From: Bolinopsis microptera
Taxonomy: Eukaryota > Ctenophora > Tentaculata > Lobata > Bolinopsidae
Direction of reading: 5' to 3'
Assembly: GCF_026151205.1 (NCBI RefSeq)
Contig: NC_087072.1
Span: forward strand, 1,385,375 to 1,445,374
DNA: 60,000 nt
The notes under the pieces are model-generated. The model did no database searches and was not told the DNA's origin. It saw nothing but the letters and a program-made list of their open reading frames with translations. The translations under genes and the position numbers were made by a program. This document shows, piece by piece, positions 25,901 to 60,000 of this stretch. Positions within the stretch are counted from its first letter, which is position 1; each line of letters starts with the position of its first letter.

Positions 25901-27911
25901 TGATGGTTATCGGTAATGTAGGAAGAGTAATTTGACAATCTTTGAAGAATATCCATTTCATCATCATCCATCGTGTACTTGTACTTGTATAAAGTAAAAA
26001 CACAGTACCCGCACAATGGCAGTTATAATGTAGCGATAAAATAGAGATAAGAGAGCTAGATTATCAACACGTAACAAAAACTAAAAAATAGACAAACATT
26101 TAATAGACATACATTTAATAGACATACATTTAATAGACATACATTTAATAGACATACATTTCTTTCATCAATCTAATTATCCTTTGCTAGTGGCTAGTTC
26201 GAGTTTAAGCCTTGTTTTCATACGCAAAAGCATTGATCATTGATGACTATTTGTCAGAGATATGACTGATTTGCATCTCATCAACATATTTGCGGCTAAA
26301 GGAATTTTTCATTGTGATAAAATTTATTAAAATCCGACTTCTGAATACAAAATTTCAGGGCAGTTTGGTGTGAACTGTTCCGTAAATTGCACGGCAGTTC
26401 CCAATCAATACACTTGCAACTCAACAACCGGAGAGAAAGTTTGTGAAACTCACTGGATAGGTTCAGAATGTGATACCTGTTCACAAAACTATTACGGTGC
26501 TAACTGTGACACATTCTGTCAAGCCAGCTCAGCTTGGGACTGTAGTGATACTGGGGAGAAGGAATGTTTGGGACACTTTACAGGGCAGAACTGTTCTCTT
26601 TGTGAGACAGGGTGGTATGGGAGTGGATGTGATCTTTATTGTGATCTCAACAGTACATTGTGGACCTGTGATGACCATGGAAGTCACATCTGCAACGGAA
26701 AGAGAACTGGTACGCTTTCCAATAATCGTTGATTTCAATTTCTTCTTCACTTTTTCATACAGCAATGACGTGCTAGCTTCATTGTTTAGAGAGAATTATA
26801 TTTAAAATCATGATCCAACGGTAGACTTTAGTTAACTGCACGACCTCCATTCCCCTGTCCCCAGGAACAAACTGTACGGATTGTAAGGAAGGTTGGTTTG
26901 AAGAAGATTGTTCAGTAGAGTGTACAGACACAGAGAGATACAAATGTACAGATCAGGGCGACAAAACTTGTACTTCTAACTGGAACGGTCTTAACTGTGA
27001 TAGGTAAAAACAACATCACCTTTTTCTGAAGATTCCTGAATACAAGGTCTCGTTCAGACATTTTAAATTTATCTTAGCTTTAATTCGACCATCTGACTGA
27101 ATCTTAAAATACATTTCCACCGCAGATGTAAGGAAATGTATTCTGGACCGAACTGCACGTGCAAAAGAGAGCCAGGAAGAGCGGAGTGTGACAAGGAAGG
27201 AATGTTGCACTGTGTGGGACACTGGACTGGTCAGCTCTGTGATATCTGCATTCCCGGATACTCTGGACCTCTGTGCTTGATACAGAATGAGGCCCCAGAT
27301 TCTTTGCCAAGTTCGTACCTTATTTCTGTTACTTCAACTTTGTTTTAATACATAACGCGTGCACATGGTGGATATCGATATATTCTGATATTTCCTAATT
27401 TTAACTTGGTTATTCAGTTATTTTTTCTAATATTAGTATGGTAATTATGATAATTTTCTAATCTTAGCTGGGTTATCTCTGGCAGCGCAACAAGATCGTT
27501 TATTTGGCGCGTACACTTACAGTGCGTTGTGATGGGACCATTATTGAGAATGACATGGAATTAAACTATACCGAAATAATCTACTATTCAATTCAAGTTC
27601 AACAGATAAAACCATCAGACGGTTAAAAAGTCACATTATCTTAATTTATGAAATTATGTGGATAACATAACTCACATAGAAATTGATCAGGGTTCAGCAA
27701 ATCGCTGCTCATATTCTGCATAATGACGGGGCTGGTATTTAGTCTTGGAGCCGGAGCTGTTCTATATGGAGTGTGCAGAAGATCATCTCTGAAGATCAAC
27801 CCGGCGTTAACACTGGAGCCCGAACCCGTAGTGTACAAGAATCCTCATTTTGTTGAAACACCCTCAGTCCCTCACTCACAAAAGAAACTTGTTTGGGGAC
27901 TGGTTTATTAG
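22971..27911 (+). CDS. DSL/EGF-repeat type I membrane protein, Notch-ligand-like, 560 aa
   Basis: Ten exons join in phase: 22971-23025, 23491-23659, 23854-23980, 24165-24332, 24456-24573, 24681-24833, 26359-26709, 26865-27003, 27126-27314, 27698-27911 (TAG). Residues 1-18 (MFLKVPIITALLILIILV) are a signal peptide. Residues about 20-170 resemble the C2/MNNL region of Delta/Jagged (CDFKFIMVFEGVS; VVDNDYLFDDTISDF). From about 176 to 480 follow at least five cysteine-rich modules of DSL pattern, e.g. NYYGANCDTFC ... CLGHFTGQNC. Residues 491-515 (KSLLIFCIMTGLVFSLGAGA onward) form one membrane segment, with a tail of about 45 residues. Canonical Notch ligands have one DSL then EGF repeats; here DSL-like modules are iterated, so binding to Notch is inference. 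The most tentative borders are 23659/23854 and 27314. Confidence 0.82.
23257..23391 (+). pseudogene. Orphan exon resembling adenylate kinase 7 (N-terminal reductase-like domain)
   Basis: An in-frame 135-base block, bounded by CCTAACCCAAG and GTAAGTCG splice-like sites, encodes 45 residues including NIIGTGENIIPSIHVRDLGN and KPKTRYI. This matches what is known of the epimerase-like N-terminal part of AK7, a ciliary adenylate kinase. It sits inside intron 1 of the DSL gene, whose phase-1 exons cannot accept this phase-0 exon without a stop. No neighbouring AK7 exons are visible, so it is probably a transposed or duplicated gene fragment. Confidence 0.62.
24841..26161 (-). mobile_element. ORF1-only LINE-derived retroposon (HAL1-like), with target duplication
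   Basis: A segment of about 1.24 kb is flanked by TTAATAGACATACATTT at 24841-24857 and at 26100 onward, where the target copy has expanded to four tandem units. The minus-strand 3' end is a short (CATTT)n tail preceded by TAAAAATGCTTTATT, as in many LINEs. Between lie a short 5' leader, one intact ORF1-type gene and about 240 bp of 3' sequence, with no endonuclease or reverse transcriptase. The insertion begins eight bases after a splice donor of the DSL gene. Confidence 0.75.
25099..25971 (-). CDS. LINE ORF1-type RNA-binding protein, 290 aa
   Basis: Start chosen at MDDDEMDILQRLS, 15 residues inside the longest frame, because the upstream residues are unlike ORF1 starts. Residues about 60-130 form a predicted coiled coil (EIKKDMEELKSDLIRSQSTV and following heptads). 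Residues about 165-285 resemble the RRM plus C-terminal domain of L1-like ORF1 proteins: KNVLIFGFEE, RPVKVSFENSSTVHQILVKA, FISPDRSPEERTIHQQLVLE, then YYIRSGKI. Such proteins form trimers that coat element RNA and act as nucleic-acid chaperones. The frame has no internal stop, which suggests a recent insertion. Confidence 0.75.
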   Translation of the reverse strand: MDDDEMDILQRLSNYSSYITDNHQVYNSWVTELSEAMSCDHENEFSAETFKKPVKAVLVKHLYNAYRTTSDHVETFLEIKKDMEELKSDLIRSQSTVIKLQDELLESKSKQLESVHSTVKTTVQDTVQAGIITFSQAVSKAAPVLTEESLKKVVQNVISEEDRTKNVLIFGFEETSEENLNHEVGEMFQQIEEKPHFEAVRVGKKSAEKIRPVKVSFENSSTVHQILVKAKELRLISRHKTVFISPDRSPEERTIHQQLVLEMKQIAKEDTDKHYYIRSGKICCKDKIVE

Positions 27912-28497: not shown

Positions 28498-29020
28498 TTA
28501 AACAAGATCTGCAAATGGATTATCATCAACCGTAAAGTCTGATCTACAAGCATCAGTTATACCCGACTTCTCAAAGCCTTTCCCTATGTCATCTGGCCTC
28601 CCTTTTAAATATACAAAAAGGTTCGTTGATCCAACGAGCGTGTACTTCACGGATCACTGTCAAGCGGGTATCAATTTTCACATTGTCTGACGAAACTCCT
28701 CCATTGAGCTGACACACTATGTTTTTCGCGTACCAATCTTCGTACTTATTGCGCATGAATTTCTTAGCCAGTCCATTGATAGATATGTCCAGGGGCTGTA
28801 GATGATGGGTCATATTAGCTGGAACTTTCTGTAGGATGCAGTTGTTGGCTGTCATCAGATCTTTTAGTGTCTGTGTGTGTTGGGCCCGAAACACATCTGA
28901 TATCAGTAGCGCTTTCTGCTCAGGGTTGTTGATGGAGGCTCGAACTGATTCTATGTGGGGAAGGAGGATTTTCTCAAAGAACTGGACACTGGTCAAACCT
29001 TTCGACCATCTGGTGAGGCG
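28498..29020 (-). pseudogene. Broken pogo/Tigger-like DDE transposase fragment
   Basis: The frame at 28996-28589 contains the DDE_1 features ALLISDVFRAQHTQTLKDLM (second catalytic acid) and VPANMTHHLQPLDISINGLA with a third acid in QPLD. A frameshift near 28605-28620 moves the C-terminus into another frame (GRPDDIGKGFEKSGITDACR to a stop at 28498). Upstream the frame is closed by a stop near 29022, so the DNA-binding N-terminus and first catalytic acid are missing. The element cannot move by itself. Confidence 0.8.
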
Positions 29021-30462: not shown

Positions 30463-31344
30463 TTTTCGGGATCTGAGCAATTCTGTTAGATCAGGAATAA
30501 TTCAGCAATTTGACATGTAACAGCTCAGGTTATTGCATTGTTTCATAGGTCCAGAAAAATGCAGTTTCATGGTTTGTTGTAAAGAATTCATGAATAACAA
30601 TGGAATAGAATATGTTGTGACCACATCTCATTGTCAAAAGATTTTTATTTCCCGCAGTCTGACGAACGAATTGCTGAAAAACTTGATTTAATATTTATTA
30701 GATGGCATTTAAAATGATCCTATTGTCTATAATCCCTTTCAATAATAACTCATTATCAAATATAAAATGGCTCTTGTTGTCACGTACAAAATTTAGTACA
30801 GTTTCTTGTTAATGCAGCAGTTTCAATATTAGTCATAAAACTAAAAACAGCCAACTTCCCACAGTTCAATTTACGTCCAGTTTCTACTACCGAACCAATG
30901 TGTTTATAATGTGTTTATAACGATTTTAAACGATTTTAAATAATCCCCCTCCATGTATATAACGTGTTTTGCCTTCTGACCCATCAATAACTTGTTTCTG
31001 TAAATCTCTACCTGTACCAACCAAACTTGCAGTCTTGTCCAAAGTCGTCCCAAAGGACCGATTGTTAAATGAGACAATGTTATTGCTATTATCTCTATTG
31101 AGTATTGTTATATATTTAACCAAATGTGATTTTGTCGAGCTGAACATTAAACAACATTTGCTTCAATCTCAAAAATGACGAGCTGGAGGCGGGAGGACAG
31201 TCTTACAGGATCTAATTCGATGTATCAGAGCTACGCAGCTATAAGTGAGTTATAATGTCAAATGTATGGATAAGACTGGATCTGGAGAGGTAATTTTATG
31301 GCCTACGAAATAATTTCCACCAGTATTTTGTCGAGCTGAACATT
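30463..31344. other. Non-coding stretch with rearranged dispersed repeat
   Basis: No gene is seen in 30463-31130. At 31131-31235 and 31263-31345 lie the two halves of the repeat present at 21839-22015, here in swapped order; both contain or abut TTTTGTCGAGCTGAACATTA. Confidence 0.5.
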
Positions 31345-32319
31345 AAACATTTACTTTTTGTATTGTTTATCAATGATATTCCTCTTGGCCTTTCGGATAA
31401 TACTGATATTGTTTTGTATGCCGATGATACAAAAATCTGGCGTAAAATACATTCATCTTCTGATAATACCAATTTACAAATGGATATAGACTATCTCTCT
31501 GACTGGGCACTTAGAAACAAAATGCGATTCCATCCAGCAAAATGTAAAGTGCTTATTGTTTCAGGAAAGCCATCTTTATCTCCTCCATTCGCATATAATC
31601 TTGATGGCTCTCCTCTTGTGTATGTAGAGTTAGAAAAAGATCTTGGAGTCGATGTTACTCCTAAGCTAAGTTGGAATAGTCAGTGCGACAGAATTTATAC
31701 TAAGGCCTGCCAACAACTTGGTATGGTCAGAAGAGATGGCCATATTGTCATTGATCTGAAACGTCGCCGGGCGCTTTACCTCTCCCTCGTTCGTAGCCAA
31801 TTCGAAAATTGTTCCATAATCTGGCGCCCTTGTAATAAATCACTTAGTGATAAATTAGAAAGTCTCCAAAAGAGAGCTATTAAATGGATTCTGTCTGAAG
31901 AGGGCCGCAGTTATCCACCTGAGCAATATGTCAAAAAGTGCAAGCTTGTCGACATTCTCCCTTTGTCTCAAAAGTTTGACTTGAATGATCTTATTTTTTT
32001 CCACAAAGTTCTGAACAATTTAATTCCTGTATCGCTGCCTCACTATCTCTCTTTATATCAGGGCACTTCTCGACTAAGACGTTGCCACCTCGACAGTCTG
32101 TCTATTGTGTCATAAATTTTACCTAAGTTAAGTCAGAATTCACACACCTTAATATGTACCTCAAATAGCCCACTGGCAAAATCATTTTTCTACAGAACTC
32201 ATATACTGTGGAATGGACTCCCTTTACAGGTAAGACAGATTGTGTCTACTAGTCTTTTCAAAGCTGAGGTCACTAAGCATCTATGGAAATGTTTATTGGA
32301 TAGTGAAACAACAGCCTAG
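31345..32319 (+). pseudogene. 5'-truncated LINE reverse transcriptase (C-terminal part) with one nonsense codon
   Basis: The frame opens at a truncation point within the palm (LLFVLFINDIPLGL), followed by VLYADDTKIW with the catalytic YADD at about 31420. Thumb and C-terminal segments follow (LDGSPLVYVELEKDLGVDV; SLVRSQFENCSIIWRP; ESLQKRAIKWIL). A TAA at 32113 interrupts it, but the same frame continues through FFYRTHILWNGLPLQVRQIV and KAEVTKHLW to TAG at 32319, as in full-length elements of the Jockey/CR1-type LINE group. Truncation at the 5' end is the usual outcome of target-primed insertion. Confidence 0.85.
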
Positions 32320-34427
32320 CCTAGTCTCTTTGCTCCCCATATTATTAATATTTTTGTTTTATTAATTTTTTATCCTCCTTCCTATACTTTCAACATCATA
32401 TCACACTTCACCCGCACACCTTCTCACACATTAATGACCATATCAGACCTGTATCTAATGTATCTGGAATTTGACGTATTGAAATACCAATTTTGACTAT
32501 ATATCCACAGTTATTCACCATGGATTTGTTTGTTATTAAATAGTTTTTCATAAATTTTTTCCATCGCCTTAAAAAGGCAATAGATGGTTAGAAGTGGTAG
32601 GAATTGAGGACGGGTATAGTGGGTAGGTATGTTTTTCGTGTCACGTGAGTCATGAATTGTGTCACAAAGGAAAACATGCATTACCCTCCGCATAACCATT
32701 TAAATGCATCTTCTCTGCGCGCGGAGCAGTAATGGTGTCATCTCCACGGTTACCCTCCGCACACGTTTGCACGATTCGACGATTGTATTACACTTTCAAA
32801 TGCGCGGCGCCAAGCTGACTGAAGTTTTCATAACAGTTACGGTCATGGGTCAGCGTACGTATGTAATTACAATAATTTATTCTGTTGTTTTAAATGGATT
32901 TTAATATAAATAATGTTGATCATTGATGCGCTACAAGTACAACTACAAGTATAACATACTAATTTCACGTTTTGTTGTGAGTTATTGGTGCAACAACCGA
33001 CTTGGCTCCCGATAATGCTATTAGAAATTAGAAATTAGAAATTAGAAAGATCATTGCAAAATTACATGTGTCAGAACTCAGATCCCAATCAGTTAAATGA
33101 AAATTATTAATAATCCGTTATATTGTTGAACGAGCGTGCTTAATCACTTTACAGTCGATCTTCGAGATTGTTCTAAAATTGGAATTAATATATCAAATAA
33201 TAGGTTAGGGTTTCGAATAGTCGTTCAGGGCCAGCTGGAGAACGAGTTGAAAAAGTTACGTGACAGTCGAGTGCAGAGTAATTAATCATCATGATCATCC
33301 TTTGTTGAACAAATTATGATGCTGATATCTTACTGGGCCGCGCTCAGCCTGTCATTCCGCCAAATCTATATTCGGCTATATGTTAATGAACATAATAGCC
33401 TGGGGTCCTCAGGTAACTGATATCATGTTGAACATTATTGTCGAGCGATTAATTTGTTATACGAAATGGACCGTAAATATTATTATGAGTTACATTATGA
33501 TTACCTAATACGGATTTCAACCATTCCTTCACATGGCTTTTGTAAATTGTAATTTTAAATTTTAAAAGGCAATGCCTACGAGTACGGTCGATGGAAATCT
33601 AGCGTCCGCTAAACGGCGCAATTCTTGTTGGATTTAGATTAATTCGATGTAATGGGTCCAAGTTACTGCGGACATAGTTCACTATGTGTTTACCGTGTTT
33701 GGGTGCCCATCATATTTTACAGATGGGGGCGATATTTTGAACGATTCTATTTTTTATTCATCTATTGCTGTACTCTGTAAAATTTGAAAAGTATTTAATA
33801 AAAAAAACATTTTTTGAACATCCTTGATATGAGCAATTATAAAACTGGAATGATCAACATAAATCAACATGTTGATGTATCGCTATCACTCCAGTTCTGT
33901 GTATGCGGATACTAAAGTCGTAATAAGTTTGATATTTTTAGCACAATTTGATCGTACAATGTTAAAATTACCTAGTTGACGAAGTAGTGCGATATATTTT
34001 AATTCGAGGCACACAATGTTGTAACACAACATAATTTATATAATTTATAAGCAGCTTCTTGTGAAATTTCTCAATTTGTGCACTGTTAGTTTGTCCCCCG
34101 CAAGCGCCCTGCTCACTGCTGCTGTGTTTCAATTTTTATGGAACTTTAGAACGCTAATTATATCATAATCTGTCCGGCTTTTATATCGGCTTTATATAGC
34201 TTAAAGTGTGTGGAATATTCTTGCGGACACATTAGTAAAAAGTTGTATCTGGATACTATGGGGCATAGCATTTTCCCTTGGCAAAATTGAAAGAACGCTT
34301 CCATCCAATCAATGTAATCACAGAATGCTGTATTTTATAATTTATATATACCTGGTGTTCCTTGAAGTAACTGTGGAGTGACTTTCTAGGCAGTATGTCT
34401 ACTCAGACACAGCTCACATAGCTTACA
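32320..34427. other. Intergenic, no gene seen
   Basis: No supported coding sequence. Contains a short GAAATTA run near 33025 and the inverted copy (33330-33425) of the repeat at 21528-21625. Confidence 0.45.
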
Positions 34428-34685
34428 GGTACCACAGCACAGGGGGACTATAGTGCACTATAGTCCCCCTGTGCTGTGGTACCACAGCACAGGGGGAATA
34501 TAGTGCACTATATTCCCCCTGTAACAGGTACCACAGCACAGGGGGAATATAGTGCACTATATTCCCCATGTGCTGTGGTACCACAGCACAGGGGGACTAT
34601 AGTGCACTATAGTCCCCCTGTGCTGTGGTACCACAGCACAGGGGGAATATAGTGCACTATATTCCCCCTGTAACAGGTACCACAG
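34428..34685. repeat. Tandem array of five perfect or near-perfect palindromes, 49-50 bp each
   Basis: Units start at 34428, 34478, 34527, 34577 and 34627, each with GGTACC at its border, and a partial sixth at 34676. Each has two-fold symmetry about AGTGCACT, and the borders are symmetric about GGTACC, so the array is a 25-bp segment in alternating orientation. Units 1 and 4 have GGGGGACTATAG/CTATAGTCCCCC; units 2, 3 and 5 have GGGGGAATATAG/CTATATTCCCCC, so variants changed on both arms together. Units 2 and 5 end in TAACA instead of GTGCTGT. Confidence 0.95.
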
Positions 34686-35806
34686 CTCCTCCGTCAACTA
34701 ACCTACTATAATGCTTGCTTACCAGCATACGTGTTGAGTGTTGAAATATGAACAATCAACTTCGCTCAATCGACCTTCAACAACCACGAATTCCCATATT
34801 TTTAGTCATTTTACCTTTTATAAATGTAATATTCATGCCGCCGTTTGAACCTTCCCCCATTCTGCTACTCAATTTATTCCGAGCTCCCGTCACTCTTGCT
34901 GCTATAAGTTTATTTCAGTCCCTTGAAAGTAGTTACACGAGCTACCCTTTTCTATGGGTTCTGTTTGTTAGCAGTTCACAAGCTGGGAGCTACGGAAGTA
35001 TGGTGATAGGTGGTATGTGAAGGAAGCTGGTATAGTGCAGAAATAATGTAAATCGCAAATGTATTTAACATAGCTGCTAACATATTTCCGATTGTTGACA
35101 TCGTAGCAGTTCTATCGAATTTTGTAAATTAAGCCTCAGCTACTTTCAAGTAAAGCAGTGTTCAGTCTCGCATATTGACGGGCCCAGGAAACATAGGAAA
35201 GCAATTAAAAGCAATTAATATATATTAATGGAGGCGATGCAAGTGTGTGCATTTTCATTAGCTGTGTAACGCTTCTAGCCTTGTTTAGGTGATATTTAAT
35301 ATTAATGATAATCCTAGGTTGTTCAAAAGACTGAATGGAGATCGCATTGCAACCATTTTAAAGCTATGCGATAGTTTTAGATTAATCTGAAGTTCGGATA
35401 GAATCCCCACTACCGAAAACATTAACGACCGATAGTTTAAGTTCATCATTTTCACAAAAATCAGATTTCATCATTTGCCCTCTACAAAGTACAAAATAAA
35501 TCAAAGTTCATATTGAGCTTCAGAAGCAATTTTATAAACCAATAAATCGTCTATAAACAATTTGGACCACATAGCACAAGAAGCACCACGTGACATACAC
35601 AACCACCGATACTCGTTTGCCATACACAGGAAGTCACTAGGATCGTCTGATGGATTTATACAATTAGCGACACTGTCCGAAATAGCGGGCCATTACAGAC
35701 CCTGGTAAAAAAGACCCCGACCACAGGGCCTACCATGTTCGACCACAGGAGGAGGAGAAAGAGAGATAAAGACTGCGATAATGCGGAGCCAGGTTCCTAT
35801 AATTCT
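34686..35806. other. Intergenic, no convincing gene
   Basis: A 90-codon frame (34748-35020) has hydrophobic stretches but no recognisable domain or splice context. The right part is probably the 3' untranslated region of CH-domain gene A. Confidence 0.4.
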
Positions 35807-37162: not shown

Positions 37163-38219
37163 CTGGGATGTGACAAGTTATTGGTCGTAAAATTTAAATT
37201 GTTATTCTGAACTGCAATAAAATTGGGGAAAATTTTCAGAAATGAAATATTTCGAACAAAAGCACATATTCAGTTTCATCGAAACTGATTTATTTCTAAA
37301 CTGAATAAAATGCAGAGGTTTTAGGTGAAATTTAATTCAAAATAATTCAAACTGAAATCGTATTCATTAACTGACAATAAAATAAACAACGTAAATATTA
37401 CGCAAATTATAAATCAAACACCATATAATCTCATCGCAAATTTTGTCGAATTCGAAATTTGGTACGAAAGTTCCATATCATGCTGTGTTACTTCTAAATA
37501 TACAGAATAGCTGTATTTATTGTGAAATTTCTTACCGAATTTTGATTTAAGATGTATTAAATTTCAACAAAATTTAAGAAGAGGAAATAAATATGTTTAA
37601 TACGCAAAATCACGCCGTACGGGGTTGTACGAAAAAATGCAACAGCAAGCGGGGGTATTATAATTACCATCAATTAATTTTTCATTCGAAGCTCTATAGT
37701 TTGTAAAGCACTGGATTTTTAAAATGTGGTGGGTCGTAGAAACAACAATGAAGATGTCCTCAATAAGCAAGAACACTAAAAAACACTCTCGTCCGAAGGA
37801 AAATGTCGCTAATAGACCGAACCATTCATTATGTAAAACTTTTCACGGCGCAGACTGATAAGATTACCAGAAAACTAAAAGCGGTGTCGTGAAAGTATAG
37901 GCGGAAATATAGGCGGTTCACGTGACTGGAACCGAGGTTTGCTATTAGCTGAAACTGTTCCGACTGCAAACTGACTGGATGGTATAAAAGTGCAAAACAG
38001 TTTTATAGGAAACTTTATTGCAAGTTGTCGAACCAATGGGAAGCAGCCTCGTGACCCAGCCATCCTATTAGATTAATACATTACTGGCCCCGACCAATAG
38101 CAGCACAGTTGAGCTGATGTCAGTACGGGAGAGGAAGAGCACACCGGCTGTACACTGCCGCCATAAACTAATTCTGCGTTTCCGAGCACCGGCCGCCCAA
38201 GCTGGATTTCTAAAACTGG
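37163..38219. other. Upstream region of CH-domain gene A
   Basis: No coding sequence is seen. Its right part holds the candidate promoter at 37915-38100; the left part is AT-rich and probably a 5' intron between an untranslated first exon and the acceptor at 37163. Confidence 0.4.
37915..38100 (-). promoter_or_regulatory. Probable promoter of CH-domain gene A
   Basis: On the minus strand two CCAAT-type boxes (GCTATTGGTC near 38090 and CCCATTGGTTC near 38035) are followed by CCTATAAAAC near 38008 and a CACGTGA E-box near 37920. The CCAAT-to-TATA spacing is normal. Transcription would begin near 37975, implying a 5' intron that ends at the acceptor before the ATG. Confidence 0.45.
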
Positions 38220-39030
38220 GGAGCTGGATTACTAGGCACACAAGAAGTTTTAAGCAAGAAAGACTTGAGAGCTGATTATTAGGCACAAAAGAAGTTTTAA
38301 GCAAGAAAAATGGAGAGCTGATTACTAGGCTCACAAGAAGTTTTAAGCAAGAAAAACTGAGGAGCTGGATTACTAGGCACACAAGAAGTTTTAAGCAAGA
38401 AAGACTGGAGAGCTTGATTACTAGGCTCACAAGAAGTTTTAAGCAAGAAAGACTGGAGAGCTGGATTACTAGGCACACAAGAAGTTTTAAGCAAGAAAGA
38501 CTGGAGAGCTGGATTACTAGGCACATAAGAAGTTTGAAGCAAGAAAGACTGGAGAGCTGGATTACTAGGCACACAAGAAGTTTGAAGCAAGAAAGACTGG
38601 AGAGTTGATTACTAGGCACACAAGAAGTTTGAAGCAAGAAAGACTTGAGAGCTGGATTACTAGGCACACAAGAAGTTTTAAGCAAAAAAAATGGAGAGCT
38701 GATTACTAGGTACACAAGAAGTTTGAAGCAAGAAAGACTGGAGAGCTGATTACTAGGCACATAAGAAGTTTGAAGCAAGAAAGACTGGAGAGCTGGATTA
38801 CTAGGCACACAAGAAGTTTGAAGCAAGAAAGACTGGAGAGTTGATTACTAGGCACACAAGAAGTTTGAAGCAAGAAAGACTTGAGAGCTGGATTACTAGG
38901 CACACAAGAAGTTTTAAGCAAAAAAAATGGAGAGCTGATTACTAGGTACACAAGAAGTTTGAAGCAAGAAAGACTGGAGAGCTGATTACTAGGCACACAA
39001 GAAGTTTGAAGCAAGAAAGACTGGAGAGCT
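38220..39030. repeat. 48-bp minisatellite
   Basis: About 17 copies of a unit containing GGATTACTAGGCACACAAG and AAGTTTTAAGCAAGAAAGAC, with single-base and short-deletion variants. Because the unit length is divisible by three, long frames run through it on both strands (up to 252 codons on the minus strand); these are not taken as genes. Confidence 0.95.
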
Positions 39031-40000
39031 GAGAGAGGTGGGGAGATGTGTACCTTAAAATCTGTGAAATGTGCGGATTGCTGAGTTAGACTTAGTGTGA
39101 TCTGTCATCATGGCCTTCTGCCGCTAGCTTCCGTTTCTGTGGAAACCAAATACCGCTAACACATGGTCGGATGTCTTCACTTCGTGTGAGCAGTTTAACA
39201 AATTCCAGGGCTCCTAAAATAATGTGCCACCAAATGGGAGTAGTGGTGAATTTGGGAGAACTTTTTATTTATTTTTTAGTAGTTGCTATTTCTTACTCTG
39301 CCTCTAAAAGCTGGGTTTTGTTGTCGAATTTGCTTATAATATTTGCAAATATATAACTTATGTGGCCACATATATGAAGTACAAAGGATTGGGTGACTCT
39401 AAAAATGGTCTATATAGATTGAGCAGTGTCTTCAGTCTTATCAATACCAATGTTTAACATCCAAGTCTGATTATTTATTATATTTATAAAAATGGCACTG
39501 GCAGGCGCCTCAAGTCTTACATATCATTCTAATCTGCTCATGAAGGGTAAGATGTCTAATACTTAGGTTATCAACGGCCCGGTCATGGTTTACCTTTGAA
39601 CAAATTGCTTTCAGCAAATAATAAATAGCTCGCATCTCACTGCAACCAACCTACCCGGCAACCATAAACTAAGCTGAGAAATGTTAGCTGTTTACAGTTT
39701 ATTTTTTAAAGGTGTTTCTTGTAACGTACTTTTCAACAGCCGCAAATTGACAAGGCATTCCACTCGATAAATCTAATTACTATGTACTAATTCGGGCCTT
39801 GGACAACCGTTAGAATTATTGATAGCTTTTTGTATTTTTAACGTGTATTTCAACAAACTATCGCGCACTCCGACAACATACCAACATTTAATAGGTTGTG
39901 CTCAAAGAAGTAGGCTTACTTACGGGGTACTCCACTGTCATCAATTTTCTAATAGTTCATTTACTTTATCTAATAAGGTCTGACAAGGCTAATGTCTTTT
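39031..40000. other. Intergenic, no gene seen
   Basis: Region between the minisatellite and the 3' side of CH-domain gene B. No coding or structured element was recognised. Confidence 0.4.
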
Positions 40001-50519: not shown

Positions 50520-52465
50520 CAAGATAATACAAGAAAGCTAGTACCCCTCACACACACTTTTGTTTTACATGTGTCAAATGAGGTAATACAACAAAGCTAG
50601 TACCCCTCACACACACTTGTGTTTTACATGTGTCAAATGAGGTAATACAACAAAGCTAGTAAACCTCACACACACTTGTGTTTTACATGTGTCAAATGAG
50701 GTAATACAACAAAGCTAGTACCCCTCAAACACACTTGTGTTTTACATGTGTCAAATGAGGTAATACAACAAAGCTAGTACCCCTCACACAGTACACTTGT
50801 GTTTTACATGTGTCAAATGAGGTAATACAACAAAGCTAGTATCCCTCACACACACTTGTGTTTTACATGTGTCAAATGAGGTAATACAACAAAGCTAGTA
50901 CCCTTCACACACACTTGTGTTTTACATATTGTGTCAAATGAGGTAATACAACAAAGCTAGTACCCCTCACACACACTTGTGTTTTACATGTGTCAAATGA
51001 GGTAATTCAACAAAGCTAGTACCCCTCACATGCAGTACACTTGTGTTTTACATGTGTCAAATGAGGTAATACAACAAAGCTAGTACCCCTCACACACACT
51101 TGTGTTTTACATGTGTCAAATGAGGTAATACAACAAAGCTAGTACCCCTCACACACACTTGTGTTTTACATATTGTGTCAAATGAGGTAATACAACAAAG
51201 CTAGTACCCCTCACACACACTTGTGTTTTACATGTGTCAAATGAGGTAATACAACAAAGCTAGTACCCCTCGCGCATACTTGTGTTTTACATGTGTCAAA
51301 TGAGGTAATACAACAAAGCTAGTACTAAGTACCCCTCACACACACACACACACTTGTGTTTTACACGTGTGTCAAATGAGGTAATACAACAAAGCTAGTA
51401 CCCCTCGCGCATACTTGTGTTTTACATGTGTCAAATGAGGTAATACAACAAAGCTAGTACCCCTCACACACACTTGTGTTTTACATGTGTCAAATGAGGT
51501 AATTCAACAAAGCTAGTACCCCTCACATGCAGTACACTTGTGTTTTACATGTGTCAAATGAGGTAATACAACAAAGCTAGTACCCCTCACACACACTTGT
51601 GTTTTACATGTGTCAAATGAGGTAATACAACAAAGCTAGTACCCCTCACACACACTTGTGTTTTACATATTGTGTCAAATGAGGTAATACAACAAAGCTA
51701 GTACCCCTCACACACACTTGTGTTTTACATGTGTCAAATGAGGTAATACAACAAAGCTAGTACCCCTCACACACACTTGTGTTTTACATGTGTCAAATGA
51801 GGTAATACAACAAAGCTAGTACCCCTCACACACACTTGTGTTTTACATGTGTCAAATGAGGTAATACAACAAAGCTAGTACCCTTCACACACACTTGTGT
51901 TTTACATGTGTCAAATGAGGTAATACAACAAAGCTAGTACCCTTCACACACACTTGTGTTTTACATGTGTCAAATGAGGTAATACAACAAAGCTAGTACC
52001 CCTCACACACACTTGTGTTTTACATATTGTGTCAAATGAGGTAATACAACAAAGCTAGTACCCCTCACACACACTTGTGTTTTACATGTGTCAAATGAGG
52101 TAATACAACAAAGCTAGTACCCCTCACACACACTTGTGTTTTACATATTGTGTCAAATGAGGTAATGCAAAAAAGCTACTACCCCTCACACACACTTGTG
52201 TTTGACATGTGTCAAATGAGGTAATGCAAAAAAGCTACTACCCCTCACACACACTTGTGTTTTACATGTGTCAAATGAGGTAATACAACAAAGCTAGTAA
52301 ACCTCACACACACTTGTGTTTTACATGTGTCAAATGAGGTAATACAACAAAGCTAGTATATCCCTCACACACACTTGTGTTTTACATGTGTCAAATGAGG
52401 TAATACAACAAAGCTACTACCCCTCACACACACTTGTGTTTTACATGTGTCAAATGAGGTAATGG
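50520..52465. repeat. Satellite array, about 60-bp unit, about 32 copies
   Basis: The unit contains AATACAACAAAGCTAGTACC, CCTCACACACACTTGTGTTT and TACATGTGTCAAATGAGGT. Variant monomers (ACATATTGTGTC, CGCGCATACTTG, CACATGCAGTACAC) recur. The AATTCAACAAAG plus CATGCAGTACAC variant pair at 51003 recurs at 51499, showing a 496-bp segmental duplication inside the array. Confidence 0.97.
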
Positions 52466-54983: not shown

Positions 54984-56000
54984 TTCATTCCTGACTAATT
55001 CACCCTTCATTCCTGACTAATTCACCCTTCATTCCTGACTAATTCACCCTTCATTCCTGACTAATTCACCCTTCAATCCTGACTAATTCACCCTTCATTC
55101 CTGACTAATTCACCCTTCATTCCTGACTAATTCACAATTCATTCCTGACTAATTCACCCTTCATTCCTGACTAATTCACCTTCCATTCCTGACTAATTCA
55201 CCCTTCATTCCTGACTAATTCACCCTTCATTCCTGACTAATTCAACCTTCATTCCTGACTAATTCACCCTTCTATTCTGACTAATTCACCTTTCATTCCT
55301 GACTAATTCACAATTCATTCCTGACTAATTCACCTTTCATTCCTGACTAATTCACCTTCATTCCTGACTAATTCACCCTTTATTCCTGACTAATTCACCC
55401 TTCATTCCTTACTAATTCACTCTTCATTCCTGACTAATTCACCTTTCATTTCTGACTAATTCACCCTTCATTCCTGACTAATTCACCTTTCATTCCTGAC
55501 TAATTCACCTTCATTCCTGACTAATTCACCCTTCATTCCTGACTAATTTACCCTTCATTCCTGACTAATTCACCCTTCATTCCTGACTAATTCAACTTTC
55601 ATTCCTGACTAATTCACCCTTCATTCCTGACTAATTCACCCTTCATTCCTGACTAATTCACTTTTCATTCCTGACTAATTCACCCTTCATTCCTGACTAA
55701 TTCACCTTTCATTCCTGACTAATTCACCTTTCATTCCTGACTAATTCACCCTTCATTCCTGACTAATTCACCCTTCATTCCTGACTAATTCACCCTTCAT
55801 CCCTGACTAATTCATCCTTCATTTCTGACTAATTCACCCTTTATTCCTGACTAATTCACCCTTCATTCCTGACTAATTCAACCTTCATTCCTGACTAATT
55901 CACCCTTCATTCCTGACTAATTCACCCTTCATTCCTGACTAATTCACCCTTCATTCCTGACTAATTCAACCTTCATTCCTGACTAATTCACACTTCTTTC
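54984..56000. repeat. 22-bp satellite array, about 46 copies
   Basis: CATTCCTGACTAATTCACCCTT is repeated with single-base and one-base-deletion variants. The TGACTAATTCA core is nearly invariant, and TGACTAA resembles an AP-1-like site by chance or by amplification. Confidence 0.97.
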
Positions 56001-56214: not shown

Positions 56215-59200
56215 TATCCCGGCCGAATTTTGTATTGTAACGCTAGGACACTAGGCCGTGTTTTGTATTGTAACGCTAGGACACTAGGCCGTGTTTTGTA
56301 ATGTAACGCTAGGACACTAGGCCGTGTTTTGTAATGTAACGCTATAGGACACTAGGCTGTGTTTTGTAATGTAACGCTAGGACACTAGGCCGTGTTTTGC
56401 ATTGTAACGCTAGGACACTAGGCCGTGTTTTGTATTGTAACGCTAGGACACTAGGCCGTGTTTTGTATTGTAACGCTAGGATACTAGGCCGTGTTTTGTA
56501 TTGTAACGCTAGGACACTATGCCGTGTTTTGTATTGTAACGCTAGGACATTAGGCCGTGTTTTGTATTGTAACGCTAGGACACTATGTCGTGTTTTGTAT
56601 TGTAACGCTAGGACACTAGGCCGTGTTTTGTATTGTAACGCTAGGACACTAGGCTGTGTTTTTTATTGTAACGCTAGGGCTCTAGGCCGTGTTTTGTAAT
56701 GTAACGCTAGGACACTAGGCCGTGTTTTGTATTGTAACGCTAGGACACTAGGCCGTGTTTTGTATTGTAACGCTAGGACACTATGTCGTGTTTTGTAATG
56801 TAACGCTATAGGACACTAGGCCGTGTTTTGTAATGTAACGCTAGGACACTATGCCGTGTTTTGTATTGTAACGCTAGGACATTAGGCCGTGTTTTGTATT
56901 GTAACGCTAGGACACTATGTCGTGTTTTGTATTGTAACGCTAGGACACTAGGCCGTGTTTTGTATTGTAACGCTAGGACACTAGGCTGTGTTTTTTATTG
57001 TAACGCTAGGGCTCTAGGCCGTGTTTTGTATTGTAACGCTAAGACACTAGGCCGTGTTTTGTATTGTAACGCTAGGACACTAGGCTGTGTTTTGTATTGT
57101 AACGCTAGGACACTAGGCCGTGTTTTGTATTGTAACGCTAGGACACTAGGCCGTGTTTTGTATTGTAACGCTAGGACACTAGGCCGTGTTTTGTATTGTA
57201 ACGCTAGGACACTAGGCCGTGTTTTGTATTGTAACGTTAGGACACTAGGCTGTGTTTTGTATTGTAACGCTAGGACACTAGGCCGTGTTTTGCATTGTAA
57301 CACTAGGACACTAGGCCGTGTTTTGTATTGTAACGCTAGGACACTAGGCCGTGTTTTGTATTGTAACGCTAGGACATTAGGCCGTGTTTTGTATTGTAAC
57401 GCTAGGACACTAGGCCGTGTTTTGTATTGTAACGCTAGGACACTAGGCCGTGTTTTGTATTGTAACGCTAGGATACTAGGCCGTGTTTTGTATTGTAACG
57501 CTAGGACACTAGGCCGTGTTTTGTATTGTAACGCTAGGATACTAGGCCGTGTTTTGTATTGTAACGCTAGGACACTAGGCCGTGTTTTGTATTGTAACGC
57601 TAGGACACTAGGCCGTGTTTTGTATTGTAACGCTAGGACATTAGGCCGTGTTTTGTATTGTAACGCTAGGACACTAGGCCGTGTTTTGTATTGTAACGCT
57701 AGGACACTAGGCCGTGTTTTGTAATGTAACGCTAGGACACTAGGCCGTGTTTTGTAATGTAACGCTATAGGACACTAGGCTGTGTTTTGTAATGTAACGC
57801 TAGGACACTAGGCCGTGTTTTGTATTGTAACGCTAGGACACTAGGCTGTGTTTTTTATTGTAACGCTAGGGCTCTAGGCCGTGTTTTGTAATGTAACGCT
57901 AGGACACTAGGCCGTGTTTTGTATTGTAACGCTAGGACACTAGGCCGTGTTTTGTATTGTAACGCTAGGACACTATGTCGTGTTTTGTAATGTAACGCTA
58001 TAGGACACTAGGCCGTGTTTTGTAATGTAACGCTAGGACACTATGCCGTGTTTTGTATTGTAACGCTAGGACATTAGGCCGTGTTTTGTATTGTAACGCT
58101 AGGACACTATGTCGTGTTTTGTATTGTAACGCTAGGACACTAGGCCGTGTTTTGTATTGTAACGCTAGGACACTAGGCTGTGTTTTTTATTGTAACGCTA
58201 GGGCTCTAGGCCGTGTTTTGTATTGTAACGCTAAGACACTAGGCCGTGTTTTGTATTGTAACGCTAGGACACTAGGCTGTGTTTTGTATTGTAACGCTAG
58301 GACACTAGGCCGTGTTTTGTATTGTAACGCTAGGACACTAGGCCGTGTTTTGTATTGTAACGCTAGGACACTAGGCCGTGTTTTGTATTGTAACGCTAGG
58401 ACACTAGGCCGTGTTTTGTATTGTAACGTTAGGACACTAGGCTGTGTTTTGTATTGTAACGCTAGGACACTAGGCCGTGTTTTGCATTGTAACACTAGGA
58501 CACTAGGCCGTGTTTTGTATTGTAACGCTAGGACACTAGGCCGTGTTTTGTATTGTAACGCTAGGACATTAGGCCGTGTTTTGTATTGTAACGCTAGGAC
58601 ACTAGGCCGTGTTTTGTATTGTAACGCTAGGACACTAGGCCGTGTTTTGTATTGTAACGCTAGGATACTAGGCCGTGTTTTGTATTGTAACGCTAGGACA
58701 CTAGGCCGTGTTTTGTATTGTAACGCTAGGATACTAGGCCGTGTTTTGTATTGTAACGCTAGGACACTAGGCCGTGTTTTGTATTGTAACGCTAGGACAC
58801 TAGGCCGTGTTTTGTATTGTAACGCTAGGACATTAGGCCGTGTTTTGTATTGTAACGCTAGGACACTAGGCCGTGTTTTGTATTGTAACGCTAGGACACT
58901 AGGCCGTGTTTTGTAATGTAACGCTAGGACACTAGGCCGTGTTTTGTAATGTAACGCTATAGGACACTAGGCTGTGTTTTGTAATGTAACGCTAGGACAC
59001 TAGGCCGTGTTTTGTATTGTAACGCTAGGACACTAGGCCGTGTTTTGTATTGTAACGCTAGGACACTATGTCGTGTTTTGTAATGTAACGCTATAGGACA
59101 CTAGGCCGTGTTTTGTAATGTAACGCTAGGACACTATGCCGTGTTTTGTATTGTAACGCTAGGACATTAGGCCGTGTTTTGTATTGTAACGCTAGGACAC

Positions 59201-60000
59201 TATGTCGTGTTTTGTATTGTAACGCTAGGACACTAGGCCGTGTTTTGTATTGTAACGCTAGGACACTAGGCTGTGTTTTTTATTGTAACGCTAGGGCACT
59301 AGGCCGTGTTTTGTATTGTAACGCTAAGACACTAGGCCGTGTTTTGTATTGTAACGCTAGGACACTAGGCTGTGTTTTGTATTGTAACGCTAGGACACTA
59401 GGCCGTGTTTTGTATTGTAACGCTAGGACACTAGGCCGTGTTTTGTATTGTAACGCTAGGACACTAGGCCGTGTTTTGTATTGTAACGCTAGGACACTAG
59501 GCCGTGTTTTGTATTGTAACGTTAGGACACTAGGCTGTGTTTTGTATTGTAACGCTAGGACACTAGGCCTTGTTTTGCATTGTAACACTAGGACACTAGG
59601 CCGTGTTTTGTATTGTAACGCTAGGACACTAGGCCGTGTTTTGTATTGTAACGCTAGGACATTAGGCCGTGTTTTGTATTGTAACGCTAGGACACTAGGC
59701 CGTGTTTTGTATTGTAACGCTAGGACACTAGGCCGTGTTTTGTATTGTAACGCTAGGATACTAGGCCGTGTTTTGTATTGTAACGCTAGGACACTAGGCC
59801 GTGTTTTGTATTGTAACGCTAGGATACTAGGCCGTGTTTTGTATTGTAACGCTAGGACACTAGGCCGTGTTTTGTATTGTAACGCTAGGACACTAGGCCG
59901 TGTTTTGTATTGTAACGTTAGGACACTAGGCTGTGTTTTGTATTGTAACGCTAGGACACTAGACCGTGTTTTGTATTTTAACACTAGGACACTAGGCCGT
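56215..60000. repeat. 33-bp satellite with 1192-bp higher-order structure, running off the window
   Basis: About 115 monomers containing GTAACGCTAGGACACTAGGC and CGTGTTTTGTATT. Diagnostic variants (CACTATGCCG at 56847, 58039 and 59132) recur at intervals of 1192 and 1093 bp. 1192 equals 36 monomers plus two 2-base insertions (CGCTATAGG); 1093 is three monomers less. Because 33 is divisible by three, long frames exist on both strands (up to 287 codons), but the monomers have the same variants irrespective of codon position and no start context, so they are not genes. Confidence 0.97.

Follow-up and report, generated by a model that had tools for sequence, protein, structure and literature searches.

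A palindromic tandem array of Bolinopsis microptera that probably descends from collapsed transposon ends

A short region of the Bolinopsis microptera genome consists of palindromes set in tandem, in which a base on one arm and its complement on the other differ together between repeat units. The question is how such an array arose and what has kept its arms alike, as the initial annotation of this DNA held that arm-to-arm conversion, hairpin-templated copying or selection for a hairpin was implied. We propose, with a probability of roughly 0.8, that the array is a collapsed copy of a MITE-like transposon which was tandemly expanded together with 13-14 bp of flank, and whose arms were copied from one another through hairpins, a history for which no function is needed.

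Layout and symmetry of the array

The array spans positions 34425-34685 of the window (the whole 60,000-nucleotide stretch analysed, C1:1385375-1445374) and comprises five 36-bp cores with flank, in units of 49/50 bp (Table 1). Start-to-start steps are 50, 49, 50 and 50 bp and the intervening spacers measure 14, 13, 14 and 14 bp, spacings that contradict the earlier description of a single 25-bp segment whose orientation strictly alternates. Comparison of the units bears out the two-fold centres, GTGCAC and GGTACC, and also the two unit types that differ by a base on one arm and its complement on the other, here called C-type (ACTATAG...CTATAGT) and A-type (AATATAG...CTATATT) cores. The 13-mer ACAGGTACCACAG is found at both array edges and at the U2/U3 junction. 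ACAG is present twice within this 13-bp flank, precedes all five cores and also follows U2 and U5.

Table 1. Features of the palindrome array, in window positions
Feature	Position	Strand	Remarks
Left edge, ACAGGTACCACAG	34425..34437	+	Final four bases, ACAG, are the left target-site duplication adjoining U1; the 13-mer recurs after U2 and U5
U1, TIR-TIR 36-mer, C-type core	34438..34473	.	Completely self-complementary; from unit comparison
P-type spacer, CTGTGGTACCACAG	34474..34487	+	Palindromic; looks like a right flank overwritten with the inverse of the left one
U2, TIR-TIR 36-mer, A-type core	34488..34523	.	Outermost right base A, not G
N-type spacer, ACAGGTACCACAG	34524..34536	+	Begins with ACAG, the right target-site duplication
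U3, A-type core	34537..34572	.	Single unpaired C-to-A on the right arm
P-type spacer between U3 and U4	34573..34586	+	
U4	34587..34622	.	Same sequence as U1
P-type spacer between U4 and U5	34623..34636	+	
U5	34637..34672	.	Same sequence as U2
Right edge, N-type, ACAGGTACCACAG	34673..34685	+	Followed by unique flank

All eight perfect palindromes of at least 18 bp in the 60-kb window lie inside the array, the longest being 72 bp, compared with a maximum of 20 bp in 20 first-order Markov sequences used as a chance control. The palindromes are real and far beyond chance, so an array of palindromes stands, but their perfection does not: the 36-bp core is perfectly self-complementary in two of the five units (U1 and U4) and the GGTACC spacer is palindromic at three of the four internal junctions. 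U2 and U5 are asymmetric at the outermost core base only, U3 carries CCCCATG opposite CAGGGGG, and the U2/U3 junction and right edge have ACAGGTACCACAG in place of CTGTGGTACCACAG. The paired changes also have to be counted anew. The 99-bp block starting at U1 is identical to that starting at U4, within an identity run of 110 bp (34428-34537 = 34577-34686), and the recurrence of the C/A change is therefore one paired difference seen twice through block identity and not a set of independent events.

The core as a probable pair of transposon ends

A DNA search of the genome (264.65 Mb, 232 contigs) with the core found two further loci, and a looser pattern gave four solitary 36-mers: L003 (C11:6230155), L004 (C13:15740349), L058 (C10:2024468) and L059 (C11:9634397), three of which (L004, L058 and L059) have unpaired changes inside the end repeats. 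Each half of the palindrome corresponds to the outer end of an element dispersed through the genome. Its 27-bp terminal inverted repeat (TIR), CACAGGRGGACTATAGTGCAAAGAAAC, matches the genome 177 times in forward and 179 times in reverse orientation with up to three mismatches, the reversed control giving none on either strand (0+0); these are the many dispersed TIR copies expected of a MITE or non-autonomous TIR transposon; the shorter 16-bp end was noisy (188+213 matches versus 111+40 in the control). The ends are arranged as inverted pairs 36-507 bp long. Repeats resembling CTGCTGCTAAC follow them in 13 of 18 copies displayed (counted by eye) and also in L063, L064 and L068, so that the family has the long TIRs and internal tandem repeats of foldback elements; the array itself has lost the internal repeats. 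We read the 36-bp core as the two TIRs of this dispersed family of DNA transposons, joined end to end, a feature that the initial annotation overlooked. On this reading the palindromy of the array is inherited from transposon ends, and its symmetry needs no special origin. Within the limited library and terms of our literature search, no title or opening of an abstract described this transposon family.

Several other matches were set aside. L005, L018, L019 and L020, short-pattern matches in which the unit is not clearly present, were dropped; the 16-bp centre pattern behind L005 was noisy against its control (5+5 vs 3+3). L020 (C11, ~548570) has GTGTGCTGTGGTGTCCTGGGC twice at its positions 1500-1600, one copy adjoining TATAGTGTAATATAGGGGGG, with a faint likeness to the right arm and flank of the array. 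L062 (C3:5791000-5794500) and L025 were left out of the family because both carry another repeat, starting CAGGGGGWCTATAGTGAARCGAC, of which the first 16 bases are alike and the remainder is not.

With element ends set at CACAGG...CCTGTG, eight of 16 elements are bordered by an exact 4-bp target-site duplication, where 1 in 256 per element is expected at random, although these end points were fixed after some of the same elements had been viewed, which favours the result somewhat. Other lengths gave three duplications at 1 bp, two at 2 bp, and none at 3 bp or at 5-10 bp in the same elements (the table of 17 rows less L029b, an alternative pairing of L029). Two of four further elements were exact, L068 (TCCC) and C2:5780558-5789033 (AGTG), with three of four bases matching in L067 and one of four in L069. 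Three of the four solitary 36-mers also have an exact 4-bp duplication. The duplication is limited to three of four bases in L027, L036, L060, L065, L066 and L067, and is lacking (0-1 of 4 bases) in L003, L031, L041 and L069. A family with CACAGGRGGACTATAGTGCAAAGAAAC-like end repeats evidently makes 4-bp target-site duplications, the fixed length expected of a MITE or non-autonomous TIR transposon. The array retains one such duplication, ACAG, and its N-type units carry it on both sides (ACAG/ACAG). An 8-bp duplication of the hAT type had been suggested by an 8-bp match at L004 with ends CAGG...CCTG, and was found in none of the 16 elements with ends set at CACAGG...CCTGTG; at L004 the wider match takes in the CA/TG of the element ends along with the 4-bp duplication. 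PMC4079192 gives 5'-CAC ... GTG-3' ends and a 3- to 4-bp target-site duplication as hallmarks of Chapaev (CMC) elements, and the present family shares both the CAC...GTG ends, as CACAGG...CCTGTG, and that range of duplication length. The family is not assigned to this superfamily, no transposase having been recognized in the bases read around the candidate full-length member described next.

One candidate full-length member, C2:5780558-5789033 (L070-L074), measures 8,476 bp with family ends and AGTG on both sides, its two ends being putatively paired from their orientation and the common AGTG. Five pieces covered 6,342 of the 8,541 bases around it, and in these the longest open frame was at most 104 amino acids. 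Pfam scans of three frames gave no match at E 0.01; one weak, irrelevant match was obtained from NCBIfam with two frames (E 0.11) and two weak matches from the PDB with one frame (E 0.33 and 1.1). Two frames bear a tentative likeness to hAT transposases, which none of these scans supports.

How an element might have shrunk to 36 bp is suggested by positions 17-20 of the end repeat, which read TGCA; this is self-complementary and hence occurs in direct orientation at both ends of an element. If the stretch between the left-end and the right-end TGCA were lost, exactly the 36-mer would remain, so a common TGCA junction at all five loci is to be expected. Another possibility, which we consider unlikely, is that the 36-bp end-to-end palindrome is itself mobile, among the smallest transposing units, and is not a dead product of collapse. 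G occupies end-repeat position 7 in all five 36-mer loci (on both arms in four, and on one arm in L004, where the other has T) and in 11 of 64 listed exact matches to the long end (hand count). Together with the exact duplications at three of four solitary copies, this would fit one lineage of jumping minimal elements whose ends were matched by palindromic copying. Against mobility, the search pattern for solitary copies was itself based on G, leaving A-type copies less room, though a pattern with that base left open likewise gave no A-type 36-mer; two of the solitary 36-mers are of a different sub-type (TAAAG), and independent collapse would by itself give the shared junction.

Paired changes between the arms

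Two differences between units bear on how the arms came to match. The first is the C/A pair. The A-type end, CAGGGGGAATATAGTG, has five exact matches in the genome, all five inside the array, and the family elsewhere carries C at this position, which marks the A/T pair as a local, derived change. The second lies at the right edge of the units, which reads GCTGT in U1, U3 and U4 and AACA (the final core base plus ACA) in U2 and U5. GCTGT is the reverse complement of the left arm, and its presence makes the right flank an exact inverse of that arm, producing a perfect 28+28 bp palindrome at 34428-34483. We take the N form, with AACA, to be ancestral, as it bears the duplication and agrees with the left edge of the array; the outgroup here is limited to that edge (34425-34437) together with the target-site duplication.

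Both the C/A pair and the change from AACA to GCTGT fit hairpin-templated copying by template switching during replication of an imperfect palindrome. The latter is the more telling, as a random 5-mer would match the complement of the left arm in about 1 in 1,000 cases; the C/A pair alone is weaker evidence because two random substitutions in a 36-mer preserve self-complementarity about 1% of the time. Of the three options originally offered, the best fit is hairpin-templated copying, itself a kind of arm-to-arm conversion, and selection is the one left unsupported. Template switching that makes or repairs the arms of inverted repeats is described in PMC8794818 and PMC8604942. The quasipalindrome changes described there resemble the present case in that, through a change of several bases, one arm becomes an exact reverse complement of the other, as with GCTGT for AACA here. 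They differ in that the change here affects a transposon-end palindrome, reaches into its flank, and is deduced from the units of one array and not from a phylogeny.

One alternative is that the paired C/A change arose by point mutation twice, independently, and that no hairpin copying took place. A rate of about 1% per pair of changes is not negligible over many arrays, and a possible parallel elsewhere in the family is a weak one: L068 (C11:19947194-19947700), a 441-bp element with TCCC on both sides, has G-to-A at position 16 in mirror-paired form, but L041, which shares its 10 left-flank bases with L068, shows this substitution on one arm only, as does L067. The separate change from AACA to GCTGT nevertheless indicates the same templated process, and we regard independent mutation as rather improbable. 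This comparison of paired and unpaired changes was not an unselected one, many elements having been picked for one exact-consensus end (L063-L066 because both ends match the consensus exactly), which hides paired changes.

The arms are not kept strictly alike. The initial annotation had named other loci with independently diverging arms as evidence against its reading, and on strict symmetry the genome-wide comparison gives such evidence: unpaired changes are carried by U3 and by all four solitary 36-mers. In L003 they are confined to the two outermost bases and the inner 32 bp is perfect.

History of the array, alternatives and parallels

We propose that, after the interior had been lost, a single element between two copies of ACAGGTACCACAG would have formed a 49-bp unit primed for slippage or unequal exchange, and that expansion followed by either route, as the identity of the units suggests. 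The U1-U2 block would have been copied in one event, the exact 110-bp repeat probably marking a late duplication. During replication the nascent strand may then have folded into a hairpin in which one arm was copied onto the other, so that the right edge of a unit changed from AACA to GCTGT and the C/A difference became symmetric. The proposed order of these events is deduced from one assembly. Counting against this explanation, the combinations of core and spacer in the array are C-P, A-N and A-P, and the expected ancestral unit, a C-type core with an N-type spacer, is absent; to derive the three from an ancestral C-N would need recombination or a repeated event. Inversion of whole units between GGTACC sites was considered and rejected, as it would alter the left flank and yet ACAG stands before five of five cores.

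That five 36-mers inserted separately at adjacent ACAG sites is suggested by the two copies of ACAG in the 13-bp flank and by its presence on either side of N-type units. We consider it highly improbable, as one and the same 13-14 bp, GTACC among them, recur as spacers, and the exact 110-bp duplication is a one-step outcome under tandem duplication. A mixed origin, with two insertions and then duplication, could also be entertained.

Selection of the hairpin, as a small RNA or regulatory structure whose use keeps the arms complementary, would account for perfect palindromes of up to 72 bp and for one paired change. It is not supported by the sequences, and we give it very little credence. A structured RNA should keep paired changes and lose unpaired ones; U3 and the four solitary copies have unpaired changes (at the two outermost bases only in L003), the edges of U2 and U5 are asymmetric, and one of the four internal spacers is not palindromic. 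No Rfam family matched anywhere in the window at the gathering threshold, and the symmetry is already accounted for by the end-to-end TIR structure. With this null result and the asymmetry tolerated, we see no sign of a function for the array. Least credible of all is an assembly artefact, as, even though palindromes are prone to errors in sequencing and assembly, an artefact would hardly invent a private C-to-A in U3 and two spacer types, and four other loci carry the 36-mer, each in flanks of its own.

Both the conversion of transposon ends into tandem repeats and arm-homogenizing template switches are known. Foldback transposon ends give rise to tandem repeats in Tetris of Drosophila virilis (PMC4079207); this is an apparently non-autonomous foldback-like element of which terminal parts have turned into repeat units, much as proposed here. 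In Tetris it is repeats of ~220 bp within the TIRs that expand, whereas in the present array the outermost 18-20 bp of both ends expanded with flank, to five units. The collapse, expansion and hairpin copying proposed here would make this a single locus in which a minisatellite has grown from transposon ends and one arm has been overwritten from the other by hairpin-guided copying, so that paired, seemingly 'compensatory' changes appear with no selection. This counsels caution before covariation is accepted as proof that an RNA or DNA hairpin is functional.

The remainder of the window contains a DDE_1 transposase remnant (28589-29020), a reverse transcriptase remnant below the Pfam cut-off (31294-32115), and animal-like genes, with DSL and laminin-EGF domains at 26331-26732. 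It is rich in minisatellites throughout (1-60000; 59 Tandem Repeats Finder rows, some of them for one array), including those at 38215-39031 (48 bp), 50525-52463 (59 bp) and 54984-56000 (22 bp). A 33-bp tandem repeat (56221-60000) reaches the window end; open frames at 56834-57724 and 58026-58916 are of equal length and look, which suggests a higher-order repeat of ~1,192 bp.
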